This document shows positions 22,470 through 31,123 of a stretch of 64,000 nt of DNA, piece after piece. The stretch covers positions 1-64,000 of the forward strand of contig JALHSP010000029.1 in NCBI GenBank assembly GCA_022865305.1, read 5' to 3'. The notes under the pieces were generated by a model. The model made no database searches and was not told the origin of the DNA. It saw only the letters and a list, made by a program, of their open reading frames with translations. Each line of letters begins with the position of its first letter. Position 1 is the stretch's first letter. Origin of the DNA: Bacteroidales bacterium. Lineage in GTDB: Bacteria > Bacteroidota > Bacteroidia > Bacteroidales > VadinHA17. Position numbers and translations under genes: made by a program.

Positions 22470-22503
22470 TCAACGTATTAAAAAACGTTTTTTAATACGT
22501 TGA
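22470..22503. repeat. 34-bp perfect palindrome
   Basis: Each 17-base arm reads TCAACGTATTAAAAAAC on its own strand, with no loop. It lies between the divergent M28-like gene and the TIR region. It could be an operator, a cruciform-forming site or a mobile-element end. Downstream, 22504-22703 holds only an imperfect CTACCCTTTAA/TTAAAGGTAG hairpin (22545-22574). Confidence 0.7.
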
Positions 22504-22703: not shown

Positions 22704-22775
22704 ATGGCAAGCTTAATACCCGGTTACGAATACGACATCTTCATCAGCTAACGACAGAAAGACAATAAGTACGAT
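22704..22775 (+). pseudogene. Decayed N terminus of a TIR-domain protein
   Basis: ATG 22704 opens MASLIPGYEYDIFIS, then an in-frame TAA, then RQKDNKYD. This matches, from memory, a recurrent N terminus of Bacteroidota TIR-domain proteins in which the stop position is a tyrosine (FISYRQKDNK). After about 24 codons similarity ends and a further stop follows at the end of the region. It is therefore a truncated and nonsense-mutated gene start, about 110 bp upstream of an intact TIR gene. The order suggests loss of a larger TIR gene by deletion or replacement. Confidence 0.6.
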
Positions 22776-22885
22776 ATGTTCATCAACTGCAGTCATAATT
22801 TATCGAACCACATTTCATGGAATTGAAAAACAAGGAGTTAAAACAAGATAGTTAAGTGATCTTCTCACAAATTACAGATACGGAT

Positions 22886-25468
22886 ATGGCTCACGATGTA
22901 TTTATAAGTTATTCCAATAAGGATAAAAATGCTGCTGATGCCGTTTGTTCGATAATGGAAAAAAACGGGATCCGTTGCTGGATTGCACCCCGTAATATTA
23001 CTCCCGGAGCGCCCTTTGCGGAGGCCATCATCGATGGCATAAAAGGATCTAAAGTATTTATCCTGGTTTATTCCTCGAATTCAAACCAGTCTAATCAGGT
23101 TGTTAAAGAGGTAGACAGGGCAGTCCATCATAGACTGGCGATTATTCCACTTCGCCTGGAGGATGTTCCTATGTCAAAACAGCTCGAGTATTATGTCAGC
23201 GATGTCCACTGGCTGGATGCTTTAACTCCTCCGCTTGAGAAACACATTGACAAATTGTGCAAGGTGGTTCAGATGCTGTTAACGATGGATAAAGTTGACA
23301 GTGATGTTATAGAAGAAGCATTCAGGACCGAAATAATAAAGCAGCAAGAGCCAGGTAAAGCTGGCAGGAGGTTTAAACTATCCCGTATTCTTATCCCGGC
23401 AGTCGCTGTACTCTTTATTGTTATTATCCTTGGTGCTGTATGGTTTTTCAAACAGCAGGCAAAGATCCACTGGGCCAGGGAGGTGGCGCTTCCTGAAATC
23501 AAGAGGCTGATCGGGGAAAACGATGTTTGGCGAAACCTTGTGAAGCCATACCAGCTGGCGGTTAAGGCGGAAGCCATCCTGGGGAAGGATACCACCGTTG
23601 CAGCACTTATCCACAAGTGTTCCAGAAATATTGATGTCCTCACAGAGCCATCCGGGGCGAGCGTTTATGTGAAGGAATACGTAGATCCCGAAGCTGAATG
23701 GTCCTTTCTTGGAATAACACCGCTGAAGGGTGTCCGTGTACCTATCGGAATCTTCCGTTGGAAGCTGGAGAAGGAAGGTTATGATACTTTATTTGCAGCC
23801 GCATCCACATGGGATGTAGGAGGCGAAGATGATATGATAAGCGGTTACAATTTCGTGCGAACTATGGACATGAAGGATAGCCTTCCTGCAGGGTTGGTAC
23901 GGGTACCAGCCACGGAGACTGAGATCGGATCGCTGGTAGATTTCTTTATCGGCCGCTATGAGGTCACAAACAAGGAGTACAAGGCATTCATGGACGCCGG
24001 CGGGTATCGTAACCGGGAGTTCTGGAAACATCCTTTCATGAAGGACGGACGAAAACTCACCTGGGAGGAAGCCATGGGGATGTTCAAAGATCAGACAGGG
24101 AGGCCTGGCCCTGAAACATGGGTTGGAGGTGACTATCCGGAAGGTCAGGGCAGCTACCCTGTGTCAGGGGTTAGCTGGTACGAGGCGGCAGCTTATGCAG
24201 AATGGGCAGGGATGAGTCTTCCCACTTCCGTCCACTGGAATGTGGCGAGAGGAGCTCTAACACCTATGATAATATGGCCTCAGCTCGGAGGATTTGGCAT
24301 CTTCGCACCCTTCACAAACTTTGGAGGTAGGGGACCGGTTCCGGTAGGCAGTCTTCCAGGGATCACAACCTACGGAGCTTATGATATGGCAGGTAACGTC
24401 AGGGAGTGGTGCTGGAACGAAACTTTGGCGGGAAGGGTCATCCGCGGAGGGAGCTGGGAGGACAACACTTATGAATTCGGGTATGAACGGCAGGCTCCGC
24501 CCATGGATCGTTCCCCAAGGAACGGATTTCGCCTGGCACTATATCCGGATACCGGGTTGGTTACTGAAGCGGCCTTCGGATTCCGGACCGCCTTCTTTGA
24601 ATCAGATTACCGTTCCCAGCCACCGGTTTCTGATGCCATCTTCAAAATCTACAGGGAACAGTTCTCCTATGATAAAAGGGAGCTGAATCCCACAGTCGAG
24701 TCACGAACAGAAAATCCTGAGGGGTGGATACACGAACGTGTCTCTTTCGACGCAGCATATGGAAAGGAGAGGGTACTGGCTCATCTCTTCCTTCCATCCA
24801 GCACACCACCTCCGTATCAGATAGTGATTTACTTCCCCGGGGATGCCTCAGCCTGGATGCCTTCCAGCGAGGGGCTGGAAAGCTATTACGAGTTCACTAT
24901 GTTCCTCTCCTACCTGTTGAGGAACGGCAGGGCAGTACTCTATCCTGTTTACAAAGGGACTTTCGAACGGGGAGGACCTGATTATATAACCACTTTACAG
25001 GTTCCAGCGAACATGCAAACCTATGCCTTCACTGAACTTTTGGTTCATGAGGTAAAAGACTTTCGCAGGAGCATCGACTATATCCAGACCCGTCAGGATA
25101 TCGACAGTCAGAAGATCGCCTATTTAGGGATGAGCTGGGGAGCATACATGGGTTCCATAATTCCGGCAGTGGAAAATCGAATTCAGACAAGCGTTCTCAT
25201 TGCAGGGGGTCTGCTGGGTTTGGCACGTCCGGAGGCCAGCGATGTAAGCTACGTAAGTCGCGTACGGACACCAACCCTCATGCTGAACGGTAAGTACGAC
25301 GTCTTTTTTCCTCCCAAGACCTCATCCCAACCAATGTTTGACCTTCTTGGGACACCACCTGAACACAAACGCCAAATCCTTTATGAGACCGACCACATCC
25401 CTCCAAGGTCCGAATTCATAAAGGAAACCCTGACCTGGCTTGACAAGTATCTGGGACCGGTGAAATAA
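22886..25468 (+). CDS. TIR - TM - PEGA - FGE-fold - alpha/beta-hydrolase fusion protein
   Basis: The 860-residue protein has five parts. Residues 1-135: TIR domain (MAHDVFISYSNKDK; RCWIAPRNITPG; candidate NADase Glu75 in VVKEVDRAV). 168-188: one transmembrane helix. ~248-305: PEGA-type repeat (VLTEPSGASVYV). ~335-555: formylglycine-generating-enzyme/SUMF1 fold (IGRYEVTNKEYKAFM, PVSGVSWYEAAAYAEW, DMAGNVREWCW, RGGSW, RNGFRLAL) lacking the catalytic cysteines. ~610-860: alpha/beta hydrolase with Ser750 (GMSWGAYMG), Asp805 (NGKYDVFF) and His837 (ETDHIPP). A GTG at 22856 follows a Shine-Dalgarno-like AAGGAG, but ATG 22886 gives the family-typical start. In better-known relatives a Ser/Thr kinase replaces the TIR. 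Cytoplasmic TIR with exported hydrolase is inferred; function unknown. Confidence 0.88.
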   Translation: MAHDVFISYSNKDKNAADAVCSIMEKNGIRCWIAPRNITPGAPFAEAIIDGIKGSKVFILVYSSNSNQSNQVVKEVDRAVHHRLAIIPLRLEDVPMSKQLEYYVSDVHWLDALTPPLEKHIDKLCKVVQMLLTMDKVDSDVIEEAFRTEIIKQQEPGKAGRRFKLSRILIPAVAVLFIVIILGAVWFFKQQAKIHWAREVALPEIKRLIGENDVWRNLVKPYQLAVKAEAILGKDTTVAALIHKCSRNIDVLTEPSGASVYVKEYVDPEAEWSFLGITPLKGVRVPIGIFRWKLEKEGYDTLFAAASTWDVGGEDDMISGYNFVRTMDMKDSLPAGLVRVPATETEIGSLVDFFIGRYEVTNKEYKAFMDAGGYRNREFWKHPFMKDGRKLTWEEAMGMFKDQTGRPGPETWVGGDYPEGQGSYPVSGVSWYEAAAYAEWAGMSLPTSVHWNVARGALTPMIIWPQLGGFGIFAPFTNFGGRGPVPVGSLPGITTYGAYDMAGNVREWCWNETLAGRVIRGGSWEDNTYEFGYERQAPPMDRSPRNGFRLALYPDTGLVTEAAFGFRTAFFESDYRSQPPVSDAIFKIYREQFSYDKRELNPTVESRTENPEGWIHERVSFDAAYGKERVLAHLFLPSSTPPPYQIVIYFPGDASAWMPSSEGLESYYEFTMFLSYLLRNGRAVLYPVYKGTFERGGPDYITTLQVPANMQTYAFTELLVHEVKDFRRSIDYIQTRQDIDSQKIAYLGMSWGAYMGSIIPAVENRIQTSVLIAGGLLGLARPEASDVSYVSRVRTPTLMLNGKYDVFFPPKTSSQPMFDLLGTPPEHKRQILYETDHIPPRSEFIKETLTWLDKYLGPVK

Positions 25469-25569: not shown

Positions 25570-28221
25570 ATGAAAAGGCAAAAATTTCTTTTTACCGCGC
25601 TTGTTTTAAGTGCATTCCTTGGGCTGTCGGCACCAATCTTTCTTTGCCTCACTTCATGCAGCAACCAGCCTGAAACTGTTGCTAATGCCAGAACAACATC
25701 ATTTGATGAGGGTTGGCATTTTCTGAAAGATAGTCTTTCAGGTGCTGAGTACCCCGACTTTAATGATTCCAACTGGAGAGTTCTCGATGTGCCTCATGAC
25801 TGGAGTATTGAAAATCTTCCCGGACAGAACGGTGAAGATATTATCGGACCGTTTGATAAATCTGCCGTTGACAGAATGAGCTCCGGCTACCTTGTTGGAG
25901 GGATCGGCTGGTACAGGAAAAACTTTACCATCAAAGAGGAGGATAAGTATAAAATCGCCTACCTGCAGTTTGACGGTGTATATATGAATGCTGATGTTTG
26001 GCTGAACGGGAAGCATCTGGGATTTCATCCTTACGGGTATACTCCGTTCTCCTATGATATTACATCTTTCCTGAATCCTGCGGGGCAGTCTAATGTTGTT
26101 GCAGTCCGGATTAAAAATGAAGGATTGAATTCACGCTGGTATTCAGGCTCAGGAATAAACAGGCATGTATGGCTTACGCTAGTAAATCCTGTTCACATCG
26201 ATGTATCAGGTGGAATATATATTACAACACCTGTGGCAAATGAGAATTCTGCTGATGTGAAAGTTGTAACTACCTTGATAAATTCAGGAGATAACGATGA
26301 AAATATTGTTCTGAGTACTGAGTTATTAGATCCTTCAGGCAAGGTAGCTGCAACTGCCACCAGCAATTCAAAGGTGACAACAGGTCAAACAATGGAGGTA
26401 ACGCAGGAAATCCCGGTTAAAAAGCCATCTCTATGGTCAATCGATGACCCGAACCTTTATCGTGCAAAAGTATCTGTACTGATAAATGAAAAAGTAGTTG
26501 ATGATCAGGTAACTCCTTTTGGAGTCCGCAGCATAAAAATTGATGCACAGAACGGTTTAACTATCAATGGTAAAGCACTTGATCTGATAGGTGGCTGCTA
26601 CCACCATGATAATGGTCCGCTGGGTGCTGCTTCTATCGACCGTGCTGAGGAACGCAAGATCGAGGTACTGAAAAATAATGGATTCAATGCAATAAGGACC
26701 AGCCATAACCCTCCGTCACCTGCATTGCTTGAAGCCTGTGACCGTTTAGGAATGGTTGTTATTGATGAGATTTTTGATATGTGGGAAAATCCTAAAAAGG
26801 AGCAGGACTATCATCTCTACTTCAGGGCATGGTGGCAGAGAGATGTGGAGTCATGGATCAAGCGCGACCGCAATCACCCGTCTGTTATTATGTGGAGCAT
26901 TGGGAATGAGATCCGTGAAGCTGCGGATACATCAGGTTACAGAATAGCTAAAAACCTCACAACAGAAATTCGCCGGCTTGATCCGACCAGGGCCATAACC
27001 GAAGCCATGCTTGGAATGGGTGCTGGCAGTGCACCAGGCAGAAGCAGGTGGGATGATTTTGAAACACATCTGGAATTACTGGATGTTGTCGGATATAATT
27101 ATGCCTATTCAAGGTATGAGTCTGATCATGTTAAATATCCAAACAGGATCATGGCTGGAACAGAAACAAATCCTCCCTTTGCTTTGGAGAATTATCAGCT
27201 GGTTGAGAAACTTCCTTATGTTATCGGATATTTTGTATGGACTGCCACGGATAACATTGGTGAAGCTGGTGTAGGCATGCCACAGCTGAGAGATATTGTT
27301 GAGACTAATAATCAGGCACCATTTAATGCCCCTGCCGGACCAGGAGCTCCTCGACAGCGAGGTTCTCCGGCTCCAAACTTTACTGGTCCGCCTGCAGATA
27401 TGCCTGGAATGCCGGGTGCCAACGCAGCTGGTCCTCCGGCAAACATACCGGGAGGAGGATTTTTCAGGCGAGAGACATGGCCTGTATATACAAATTACCA
27501 GGGTGATATTGACCTTATTGGCAACAGAAAAGTGCCTTCATATTTTCAGTATGTTGTCTGGCGCAAAAGCAAAGTTGAAATGTTTGTGCACCGTCCGATT
27601 CCCGAAGGTAAAAGAGAGGTTACGAGTCGCTGGGGTTTCCCGGATGAGCTTAAAAGCTGGAATTGGTCCGGTCATGAGGGTGAGAAATTTCAGGTACATG
27701 TTTACACCCGCAGCCAGCAGGTTAAACTTGAGTTAAATGGTAAAATCGTTGGTGAGCAGAATGTGGATCAGGAAAAATCTATTACAGCTACATTCGAGGT
27801 TCCTTATGAGCCAGGCAAGCTGGTTGCCCATTGCTATGACAATGGCAAGGAAACTGCATCACAAACTCTTGAAACTACCAGTAAGCCGGCGGCTGTCAGA
27901 CTTATCGCTGACCGAACCAAAATCAAAGCAGACCGGAATGACCTATCTTATGTAAGGGCAGAAATAATAGATTCTAAAGGCAACATAGTTCCTGATGCAG
28001 ATGATATAATCGTAAACTTTGAGGTAACCGGCAATGGGAAGGTTGCAGGTGTTGGAAGTGGTAACCCAAGAGACATGTCAAGTTTTCAGCAGCCAAAGAA
28101 AAAAGCCTACCAGGGAATATGTCTGGCAATAATACGACCGGAAACAACTCCCGGAAAAATAAGCGTAAGGGCTACAGCTGAAGGATTAAAGGAGGCTTCA
28201 CTTGTAATAACGGCTAAATAA
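25570..28221 (+). CDS. Exported GH2-family glycosidase (beta-galactosidase type)
   Basis: The 883-residue protein has a signal ending in lipobox LTSC (Cys30). Domains: sugar-binding jelly roll (~44-210), immunoglobulin-like (~215-325), TIM barrel (~328-640) and C-terminal Ig/DUF4982-like domains (~650-883). The acid/base is Glu447 in WSIGNEI; the likely nucleophile is Glu532 in MAGTETNPP. Between residues ~581 and 635 the barrel carries an unusual Pro/Gly/Ala-rich insert (27310-27474). Family members remove beta-galactosyl, beta-glucuronyl or related terminal sugars; substrate not resolvable. It stands 101 bp after the TIR fusion with no clear terminator between, so cotranscription is possible. 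Lipidation places it at the outer membrane or periplasm, fitting the polysaccharide-related genes at 3.8-8.3 kb. Confidence 0.9.
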   Translation: MKRQKFLFTALVLSAFLGLSAPIFLCLTSCSNQPETVANARTTSFDEGWHFLKDSLSGAEYPDFNDSNWRVLDVPHDWSIENLPGQNGEDIIGPFDKSAVDRMSSGYLVGGIGWYRKNFTIKEEDKYKIAYLQFDGVYMNADVWLNGKHLGFHPYGYTPFSYDITSFLNPAGQSNVVAVRIKNEGLNSRWYSGSGINRHVWLTLVNPVHIDVSGGIYITTPVANENSADVKVVTTLINSGDNDENIVLSTELLDPSGKVAATATSNSKVTTGQTMEVTQEIPVKKPSLWSIDDPNLYRAKVSVLINEKVVDDQVTPFGVRSIKIDAQNGLTINGKALDLIGGCYHHDNGPLGAASIDRAEERKIEVLKNNGFNAIRTSHNPPSPALLEACDRLGMVVIDEIFDMWENPKKEQDYHLYFRAWWQRDVESWIKRDRNHPSVIMWSIGNEIREAADTSGYRIAKNLTTEIRRLDPTRAITEAMLGMGAGSAPGRSRWDDFETHLELLDVVGYNYAYSRYESDHVKYPNRIMAGTETNPPFALENYQLVEKLPYVIGYFVWTATDNIGEAGVGMPQLRDIVETNNQAPFNAPAGPGAPRQRGSPAPNFTGPPADMPGMPGANAAGPPANIPGGGFFRRETWPVYTNYQGDIDLIGNRKVPSYFQYVVWRKSKVEMFVHRPIPEGKREVTSRWGFPDELKSWNWSGHEGEKFQVHVYTRSQQVKLELNGKIVGEQNVDQEKSITATFEVPYEPGKLVAHCYDNGKETASQTLETTSKPAAVRLIADRTKIKADRNDLSYVRAEIIDSKGNIVPDADDIIVNFEVTGNGKVAGVGSGNPRDMSSFQQPKKKAYQGICLAIIRPETTPGKISVRATAEGLKEASLVITAK

Positions 28222-28607: not shown

Positions 28608-28991
28608 ATGCCAAGAGTATTTAAAGCTACCGAAATAGAAAAAGAGGAAAAAGAGATAAAACGTGACTATCTCGACAGGCACATGCCGCATTTATTCTGC
28701 CCCGACCAGGTTAAGAGAGGTGAAAAATTTGCAGTTAAAGTAAAGATGGGGGAAGAATACCCTCATCCTGATGAACATGAACATTTCATAAGTGTTATAC
28801 AGCTCTGGAACAGGGAAACTCTCCTTGCTGAAGCCCGCTATACTGCTGGAGTCTATGGTAATATGCCATCGCATGCCGAGATCGATTTTTATATTGTGGC
28901 TCCTGAAGTATCAATGAACCTTTCGGCTATGTCGGTCTGTACCAAACATGGATTATGGCAGAGCGAAGACAAGCCTGTCAAAGTGATATAA
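28608..28991 (+). CDS. Superoxide reductase/desulfoferrodoxin-like protein
   Basis: The 127-residue protein has the single-domain (neelaredoxin-type) iron-site ligands: His25 (DRHMPH), His53 and His59 (HPDEHEH), Cys111 and His114 (CTKHGLW). Such enzymes reduce superoxide to peroxide at a His4-Cys iron centre. The residues just before the first His are Asp23-Arg24 where characterised enzymes have Glu-Lys; the lysine aids superoxide attraction, so Arg may substitute conservatively. No N-terminal desulforedoxin domain is present. The gene follows the tRNA divergently; TATGTTTG at 28530-28537 is a possible -7 element. Cytoplasmic; suggests an anaerobic or microaerophilic lifestyle (inference). 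Confidence 0.82.
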   Translation: MPRVFKATEIEKEEKEIKRDYLDRHMPHLFCPDQVKRGEKFAVKVKMGEEYPHPDEHEHFISVIQLWNRETLLAEARYTAGVYGNMPSHAEIDFYIVAPEVSMNLSAMSVCTKHGLWQSEDKPVKVI

Positions 28992-29073
28992 CAGGTAAAA
29001 TTCCTGATTTTACAAAGGTTCCATGATTTGATCCGACAGGTTTATTATCTTTGCTGGCTGATTTTTCTTGATT

Positions 29074-29937
29074 ATGGCTAAGAACGATAAGAAAAAAAGT
29101 AACTGGCGCGATAAGTACAGGTTTTCTGTAATTAACGACACAACATTTGAAGAGGTATGGAGAGTACGGCTTACCCAGTACAATGCTTTCCTTCTCATAA
29201 CTTCTCTTGTACTGTTTATTATCGGTGCCACAACATCACTGATTGCATTCACTAACCTCAGGGAATTCATCCCGGGGTACCCCGATGTGACAATGAGGCG
29301 TAATATACTTATGAGTGCAATACGCCTGGATTCTCTCGACCGTGAACTTGCCCTGCGCGATAAATACTTTGCAAACCTCAATGCAATAGTATCGGGAAAT
29401 GAACCTGTTGATCTCTTTTCCGTTCAGGATACCTCAAGAAATTATAAAGGGATAACATTCAGGAACACTCCGGAAGACTCAGCTTTAAGAGCCAGGGTGG
29501 AAAAGGAGGAAAGGTACAACCTTACCCTTGGTCCTACATCTCTAGAATCTGTTACAAGTCTGGCAGGACTCCATTTTTTCCCACCGGTGAAGGGAATTGT
29601 ATCAGGTAAATATGATGTTCGCACAAAACATTTTGGTACCGATATTGTAACAAAGCCAAAATCACCTGTCTCCGCAACTCTTGACGGAACTGTGATATTT
29701 ACCGGCTGGACAATGGAAACCGGATTTGTTATCGAATTACAGCACCCGAATAATATTGTATCAGTTTACAAACATAATGCAAGTCTTCTGAAAGAGACAG
29801 GCGATCTTGTTCGGGCCGGGGAAGCTATTTCAATCGTCGGTGACTCGGGTGAATTATATACATCAGGACCCCATCTCCATTTTGAGATTTGGTATAAGGG
29901 GAGTCCGCTTGATCCTGAGAAACATATATTTTTCTAA
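29074..29937 (+). CDS. M23-family (LytM-like) metallopeptidase, membrane-anchored
   Basis: The 287-residue protein has a basic cytoplasmic N terminus, one helix at ~38-58 (AFLLITSLVLFIIGATTSL), a helical spacer and a LytM domain from ~175. Zinc-site residues are His186 and Asp190 (KHFGTDIV) and His267-x-His269 (GPHLHFEIW), so the site looks complete. It probably acts on, or regulates hydrolysis of, periplasmic peptidoglycan crosslinks. ATG 29074 was taken over the TTG at 29068. TATCTTTG at 29046-29053 is a possible -7 element with no good -33. It lies 16 bp before dxr and may start that operon. Confidence 0.9.
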   Translation: MAKNDKKKSNWRDKYRFSVINDTTFEEVWRVRLTQYNAFLLITSLVLFIIGATTSLIAFTNLREFIPGYPDVTMRRNILMSAIRLDSLDRELALRDKYFANLNAIVSGNEPVDLFSVQDTSRNYKGITFRNTPEDSALRARVEKEERYNLTLGPTSLESVTSLAGLHFFPPVKGIVSGKYDVRTKHFGTDIVTKPKSPVSATLDGTVIFTGWTMETGFVIELQHPNNIVSVYKHNASLLKETGDLVRAGEAISIVGDSGELYTSGPHLHFEIWYKGSPLDPEKHIFF

Positions 29938-29953
29938 TAATCAAAATCCTTGT

Positions 29954-31123
29954 ATGCCTGAAAGAATTGCATTGTTGGGATCAACCGGATCAATTGGCAA
30001 ACAGGCTCTGGATGTTATATCAAGATATCCTGATAAATTTAAGGTGGAGGCTCTGACTGCAGGAGATAATATTGACCTTCTTACCAGTCAGGCAAGAAAA
30101 ATTCTTCCGCATTCGGTTGTGATAGGTAACAGCAAACATTACAGGCAGCTTAAGGAAAACCTAAGGGATACAAAGATCAGTGTTTATGCTGGTAATGGAG
30201 CAATGGAACAGGTTGTTGCAGGTTCAGATATTGATGTAGTTATTGCAGCAATTGTCGGATATTCCGGCTTGAAACCCACGATATCAGCAGTGAAAGCTGG
30301 AAAGAAAATTGCACTCGCAAACAAAGAAACACTGGTTGTTGCCGGAGAAATAATCAGTAAAATGGTACGGCAATCAGGAAGCAGGATCATCCCTGTCGAT
30401 TCAGAACACTCGGCAATTTTTCAGTGCCTTTCCGGTGAAGAAAACAATCCTGTTGAAAGAATAACTCTGACAGCTTCAGGCGGGCCGTTTCTGAATATGT
30501 CAGTCAGGAAGCTTCAAAATGTCAGTCCTGATGATGCTCTAAGACATCCTAACTGGAATATGGGTGACAAGGTTACTGTTGATTCAGCATCGATGATGAA
30601 TAAAGGCCTGGAGGTAATTGAAGCAAAATGGCTTTTTGATCTTAAACCTGAACAAATCAGGGTTATCATTCATCCTCAGTCAATAATTCATTCATTTGTC
30701 CACTTTGCTGATGGTTCAGTGAAAGCACAACTGGGTATTCCTGATATGAGAATCCCCATCCTGTATGCACTTAGCTATCCGAAAAGGTTTGCATCAGATC
30801 TTCCCCGTCTTGATCTCACAGATTATCCTGCATTCACATTTTCAGAACCTGATCTCAGAAAATTCAGGAACCTTTCCCTGGCTTATTATGCCTTAAGGGA
30901 GGGAGGTAATATGCCATGCATTCTGAATGCGGCAAATGAAATAGCAGTCAAGGCATTTCTTTCAGAAAAAATTGGGTTTATGCAAATGCCTGACATTGTA
31001 GAATATACTATGTCTAATATACAATATCATCCTTCTCCCGATCTTGAAGTTCTCGAAACATCTGATAAAAATGCCAGGGAAACAACAATAAATTATATTA
31101 ACAAACATTATAAAAAAAGATGA
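29954..31123 (+). CDS. dxr: 1-deoxy-D-xylulose 5-phosphate reductoisomerase
   Basis: The 389-residue NADPH-dependent enzyme makes 2-C-methyl-D-erythritol 4-phosphate, the committed step of the MEP isoprenoid pathway. Signatures: nucleotide-binding IALLGSTGSIGKQALDV at residues 5-21, ALANKETLVVAGE, metal and substrate region IPVDSEHSAIFQCL, and VDSASMMNKGLEVIEA. Length is normal. The frame runs further upstream, but ATG 29954 gives the family start MPERIALLGSTGS. The stop overlaps the rseP start by four bases (ATGA), so the two are translationally coupled; dxr-rseP adjacency is common in Bacteroidota and other bacteria. Confidence 0.97.
   Translation: MPERIALLGSTGSIGKQALDVISRYPDKFKVEALTAGDNIDLLTSQARKILPHSVVIGNSKHYRQLKENLRDTKISVYAGNGAMEQVVAGSDIDVVIAAIVGYSGLKPTISAVKAGKKIALANKETLVVAGEIISKMVRQSGSRIIPVDSEHSAIFQCLSGEENNPVERITLTASGGPFLNMSVRKLQNVSPDDALRHPNWNMGDKVTVDSASMMNKGLEVIEAKWLFDLKPEQIRVIIHPQSIIHSFVHFADGSVKAQLGIPDMRIPILYALSYPKRFASDLPRLDLTDYPAFTFSEPDLRKFRNLSLAYYALREGGNMPCILNAANEIAVKAFLSEKIGFMQMPDIVEYTMSNIQYHPSPDLEVLETSDKNARETTINYINKHYKKR

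Follow-up and report, generated by a model that had tools for sequence, protein, structure and literature searches.

The gene at 22886..25468 of the 64,000-nucleotide stretch of DNA analysed here (the window) encodes a protein in which, as judged from sequence comparison, a Bacteroidales TIR head is joined at a transmembrane (TM) helix to a tail whose commonest output in our sample is a Ser/Thr kinase. We suggest, with a probability of roughly 0.6, that this window protein is a one-component transmembrane receptor-enzyme of chimeric make-up, with a tail that resembles esterases and an output that can be exchanged, in this case a TIR domain. To the domains described in an earlier note on this DNA, the analysis adds BTAD-type heads, tails that carry only TM helices, a second TIR-like family, and repeated exchange of heads and tails. 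Labels beginning with L denote loci, and those beginning with G denote genomes.

Gene and domain architecture

The longest reading of the open reading frame (ORF) runs from a GTG at 22856 to a stop at 25468, and the ATG at 22886 gives a protein of 860 aa. The start MAHDVF is common to the window protein, L013 and L100; full-length relatives are 66% (L013/L019) and 77% (L100) identical to it. The features of the locus are as follows.

22704..22787, + strand: decayed start of a type-B TIR-like gene (tblastn E 5.5e-08; one internal stop)
22886..25468, + strand: whole gene, TIR-TM-PEGA-like-FGE-like-hydrolase (860 aa, one ORF)
22886..23290, + strand: TIR domain, type A, residues 1-135 (TIR_2 E 2e-22; 85-90% identity to the L013, L100 and L101 heads)
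23108..23110, + strand: Glu75 codon, candidate NADase residue (13/13 heads; position in model)
23369..23461, + strand: TM segment, residues 162-192 (hydropathy; head/tail junction at its end, marked by an identity step)
23621..23860, + strand: PEGA-like beta domain, residues 246-325 (sub-cut-off Pfam PEGA; model)
23888..24550, + strand: FGE/EgtB-fold domain without the FGE cysteines, residues 335-555 (Pfam; VIA)
24686..25465, + strand: alpha/beta-hydrolase, residues 601-860 (VIA match to 5fdf; triad conservation)
25133, 25298 and 25394, + strand: triad codons of the hydrolase, Ser750, Asp805 and His837, respectively

In the AlphaFold2 model (mean pLDDT 86.6, below 50 at residues 94-115, 141-167 and 314-319) the TIR is followed by a long helix with the TM segment, the beta domain, the FGE/EgtB fold and the alpha/beta-hydrolase. 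The only hydrophobic segment above the Kyte-Doolittle threshold is residues 162-192, which bears out the single TM helix counted in the earlier note. In Pfam, TIR_2 and FGE-sulfatase lie far above their cut-offs and PEGA just below (residues 248-304, E 0.0011, 19.3 bits vs 20.8). Together with the beta domain of the model, this agrees with the PEGA-like repeat that the note had described, and "PEGA-like" is the correct wording for a domain below the cut-off.

The TIR head

TIR_2 covers residues 5-124 with 80.4 bits (Pfam, cut-off 28). The TIR fold of the window protein rests on sequence, namely on Pfam and on profile matches to TLRs, SARM1/tir-1, SPARTA TIR-APAZ, AbTir and Cat1; the VIA fold search of the window model covered residues 335-858. 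A SEFIR domain gave the best rows of the profile search, which may be due to inclusion of the distant L162 sequence.

The glutamate that is essential for NADase activity in TIR domains has been placed between strands betaC and betaD (PMC7075850). Glu75, which had been proposed as the candidate NADase residue, sits in the model in a helix between the predicted strands betaC (57-62) and betaD (85-90), and is invariant in 13/13 aligned heads, one of them the distant ORF L162 of the window's own genome; the proposal is thus sustained. In phmmer alignments it stands opposite Glu in TIR-STING, Cat1 and TLR6, and opposite Thr in Hydra TRR-2. TLR6 is not known to cleave NAD. Because the Glu of TLR6 and the Thr of Hydra TRR-2 align there, a Glu at position 75 proves nothing by itself. 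All in all, the head is a probable NAD-cleaving TIR.

Purifying selection acts on the TIR, with dN/dS values of about 0.04-0.12 in those pairs (five of six) that have a finite dS; the values are rough because dS is high. Given the full-length relatives and these low values, the gene is not a chance product.

The FGE-fold and hydrolase tail

The FGE-sulfatase match spans residues 351-551 (E 5.7e-28), and the structure nearest to this part is EgtB 4x8b (VIA Z 22.9, 205 residues, rmsd 2.3). At 66.6 bits the window protein stays below the EgtB equivalog cut-off of 360. Two alignment columns, which we take to be the positions of the FGE catalytic cysteines, are occupied by Asp526 and Phe531, and Cys is absent from both columns in 47/47 non-TIR tails. 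On this mapping the fold has lost its catalytic cysteines, as the earlier note had it.

Pfam matches of the hydrolase are all sub-threshold (BD-FAE, Peptidase_S9, DLH, PETase and others). Its structural match is clear: among solved structures acetyl esterases come closest, with VIA Z 25.4 over 264 residues to 5fdf (rmsd 2.8, 15% identity) and many other rows no more than 1 Z away. Fold and Ser-Asp-His triad are like those of acetyl xylan esterase/cephalosporin C deacetylase (CE7; Z 25), but identity is just 15-18%. The nucleophile motif of CE7 enzymes is GxSQG, and that of the window hydrolase is GMSWG. The Ser750-Asp805-His837 triad, reported earlier as intact, is present at exactly these positions, and all three residues are kept in 48/49 tails. 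Only L018, a kinase relative, departs from this; its hydrolase has no nucleophile serine, and the protein might be a sensor-only form.

Heads on related tails

The window tail is 67-68% identical over about 670 residues to those of the kinase proteins L014, L030 and L031, from three genomes, all in the phylum of the Longimicrobiales MAG G589. The L014 head matches Pkinase at E 2.5e-53, and the window protein has no Pkinase match at E 1 (Pfam). Compared with the three kinase proteins, the window protein is 19-23% identical in the TIR region. The figure climbs to 40-50% for residues 181-200 and to 70-90% for residues 191-220, which puts the step where the TM helix ends. That the TIR stands in the place of the kinase on a homologous tail, as claimed in the earlier note, is well supported by these alignments.

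In the phylum of G589, the MAG that carries L014 (Gemmatimonadota by NCBI ranks), 59/298 genomes of the sample have a tail match; in the window's phylum 3/296 do, its own genome counted. In the G588 family, 12/116 genomes have a tail match and 14 match overall, G916 and G920 through the TIR head only. In the order sample at 1e-30, 5/295 genomes match: one is the own genome, two match through a tail piece and two through a head.

From the G589 set, 64 stretches (L030-L093) and L014 were read, a subset of all matches. With one duplicate removed, 71 tail rows were classified: 43 kinase, 2 TIR-A, 16 other heads, 4 short N-termini, 4 truncated and 2 partial. The kinase heads, which agree with the earlier statement that such tails occur on Ser/Thr kinases, come from the G589 set (41) and from the window's phylum (L017 and L018). 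The 16 other heads were read as 4 of BTAD type (L061 by Pfam, E 9.4e-14; L053, L054 and L086 by eye) and 12 consisting of TM helices only. Among the rows of the G589 set, neither TIR-A nor TIR-B heads turned up. The 12 tails of the G588 family carry TIR-A (3), TIR-B (6) or TM helices only (3), and none a kinase.

Type-B heads are called TIR-like because of their predicted fold and because NCBIfam FxsC matches them weakly (E 0.0011). Four of these proteins (L103, L104, L105 and L107) were scanned and have no Pfam family at E 0.01. The head model (mean pLDDT 79.2, 18 sequences) lies nearest to TIR domains, with 4c6t as best match (VIA Z 12.3, 143 residues, rmsd 3.1; Foldseek best E 1.5e-04), and Glu96 is invariant in 18/18 heads. 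A profile comparison of TIR-A with TIR-B aligned just 21 columns at 36.8% probability, and no TIR was among the matches of a phmmer-type search of the PDB with the TIR-B profile. Type B has many copies in some Bacteroidales genomes and would amount to a TIR-like group of some size that has so far escaped counting. In the window's own genome, fourteen ORFs (L147-L160) combine type-B TIR-like heads and TM segments with TolB-like/TPR tails; heads of this kind occur in none of two sampled congeners and in 7/295 genomes of the order sample.

These data also allow a wider reading, which we offer only tentatively: an extracytoplasmic sensor-esterase wired interchangeably to Hanks-type kinases, BTAD-type transcriptional regulators and two separate TIR families, its heads being exchanged naturally at the TM junction, in which the TIR would be a general second-messenger output of surface receptors in bacteria, outside immunity. 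It seems rather unlikely that the protein is a membrane-anchored extracytoplasmic esterase with a head that is mainly anchor or scaffold, the TIR assembling without NAD cleavage. The triad is kept on every head type, and TM-only tails (12/71 classified rows, 3/12 in the G588 family) demonstrate that the tail can go without a known output domain. Against this, kinase heads retain their HRD and DFG motifs in 42/72 rows, and the TIR is the best conserved part of the protein, at 85-90% vs 61-75% in the hydrolase (L013 and L100).

Exchange of heads and tails

In the tail tree (42 rows), one group (support 98/94) holds the tails of the window protein and L100 beside those of L014 and L030, and another (100/98) comprises L013, L113 and the fragment L009. 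The TIR-A tails thus lie in two places with kinase tails between them. A constraint joining the window, L013 and L100 tails was rejected (AU p 0.009), in a tree that has several rows of odd composition and one long branch. TIR-A heads that sit on this tail share 85-90% identity. They stand together in the head tree, weakly by themselves (71/73) and firmly when one TPR-tailed head is included (98/97), and look like one lineage. As type-A heads cluster while the tails behind them are split between two positions among the kinase tails, the trees show heads and tails to have recombined, in more than one exchange.

Up to residue 230, L101 and the window protein are 85-90% identical; identity is then about 40-55% in the PEGA-like part and 70% in the part of the FGE domain that L101 reaches, which suggests a mosaic. 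L101 (head) and L113 (tail), on two contigs of G962, are probably a single gene.

Base composition also changes along the gene. GC3 of the window tail is 54.7, compared with a mean of 38.5 (sd 4.6, maximum 49.5) in 45 other window genes, and that of the head is 43.3, below their maximum. There is a similar step from head to tail in L100 (39.3 to 48.9) and L101 (38.7 to 46.9), and a reversed one in L013 (head 58.7, tail 49.1); in the genes of the three kinase proteins GC3 is 72.4-82.1. Such values are in keeping with a GC-richer origin of the tail, although they are no proof of it.

Genomic neighbourhood

The neighbours encode a hybrid histidine kinase, an M28 peptidase, a GH2 enzyme, desulfoferrodoxin and housekeeping functions. 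No defence system was found among those scanned (ten by Pfam, ten by PADLOC, seven in both); PADLOC matches were confined to generic kinase, sigma-54 and GH2 parts, and ThsA was absent from the PADLOC-scanned neighbours. A STALD search gave no match, and its controls likewise gave none. The viral_contigs scan contained no relative. Searches of plasmid and phage records returned partial domain matches in two plasmids and one unannotated contig labelled as phage, and carriage by a mobile element was rejected, as no match covers 80% of the query.

The earlier note had raised a role in defence, and this did not hold up among the scanned neighbours. An anti-phage or stress suicide receptor, in which the tail senses envelope damage or surface phage and the TIR depletes NAD, is a doubtful reading. 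It draws on weak matches of the TIR to the PADLOC models SAVED-TIR, PDC-S66 and ThsB (best 29.2 bits, E 1.2e-07), on L100 passing the Pfam ThsB_TIR cut-off of 21.2 bits (22.2, vs 19.1 in the window protein), and on the wealth of type-A and type-B TIR genes in some related genomes. The ordinary neighbours, the lack of full plasmid or phage matches, and a tail family wired mostly to kinases and regulators weigh on the other side, and a receptor-enzyme that signals through its TIR seems to us likelier than a defence gene. A chance or decaying fusion devoid of function is very improbable: a decayed scrap lies just upstream and the gene is rare, found whole in the own genome only among the five matching genomes of the order, but the full-length relatives, the dN/dS values and the conserved surroundings of the G962 tail piece all tell against it.

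These surroundings are the genes for desulfoferrodoxin, an M23 peptidase and Dxr, which lie after the gene, at window 28608-31123, and also after the G962 tail piece (L166), at identities of 91%, 89% and 74%. GH2 enzymes that are 69% identical are encoded near the TIR gene in two genomes (window 25570-28221; L013 5857-8370). The GH2 enzyme was considered as a partner of the TIR protein: its homologue is three genes from the L013 gene, but the short contigs L164, L165 and L166 have none.

Proposed mechanism and comparison with known systems

We infer a cytoplasmic TIR and an outer tail mainly by analogy with the kinase relatives, for which net charge favours N-in; net charge on the two sides of the TM helix is equal in the window protein, L013 and L100. 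On what we infer of ligand, esterase and NADase activities and coupling, the receptor-enzyme probably works as follows. Outside the membrane, the FGE fold would bind an acylated glycan or another ester of the envelope, on which the hydrolase would also act. This would alter the association between tails, and the TM helix would bring the TIR heads together. The assembled TIRs would then cleave NAD+ through Glu75, yielding a signal, or NAD loss when strongly driven.

In Chlamydia, for example, there are Ser/Thr kinases that carry an FGE-fold (NirV/DUF323) domain at the C-terminus (PMC1262709). The window protein is like them in joining an output domain to an FGE-fold tail, and unlike them in having a TIR in place of the kinase; for the Chlamydia proteins the cited passage names no PEGA-like or hydrolase part. 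The kinase relatives L014, L030 and L031 share the whole tail with the window protein. Conflict systems that are diversified by DGRs or linked to STAND proteins combine TIR with FGE/C-type-lectin domains, and count TIRs and kinases among their alternative effectors (PMC10907252, PMC8195603, PMC7159879). Unlike these, the window protein has a single TM helix and an active-looking hydrolase, and no STAND, MoxR-vWA or reverse transcriptase was seen here. Animal Toll-like receptors are likewise single-span receptors with a TIR, a comparison of how they work only, as the order of domains is reversed and the outer part unrelated; no LRR family was found in the window protein at E 1 (Pfam). Among openly licensed PMC papers, none was found that describes the architecture.

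The protein suggests that bacterial surface receptors can use TIR domains as plug-in outputs. Natural pairs, in which one outer part is joined to either a kinase or a TIR, make it testable whether TIR enzymes are regulated signalling outputs or only suicide effectors, and the related proteins are a ready-made set of receptor chimeras.

Type-B remnant upstream of the gene

The decayed type-B start just upstream of the gene has a homologous scrap upstream of L100, which shows that both loci once adjoined a type-B gene. The scrap was considered as a "fossil" of a head swap, but we do not take this as established: the window tail groups close to tails of kinases rather than of TIR-B proteins, and type-B genes, intact or as scraps, also occur next to related genes in other places. 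Upstream of the scrap, at window 22470-22503, is a perfectly self-complementary, A+T-rich stretch of 34 bases.
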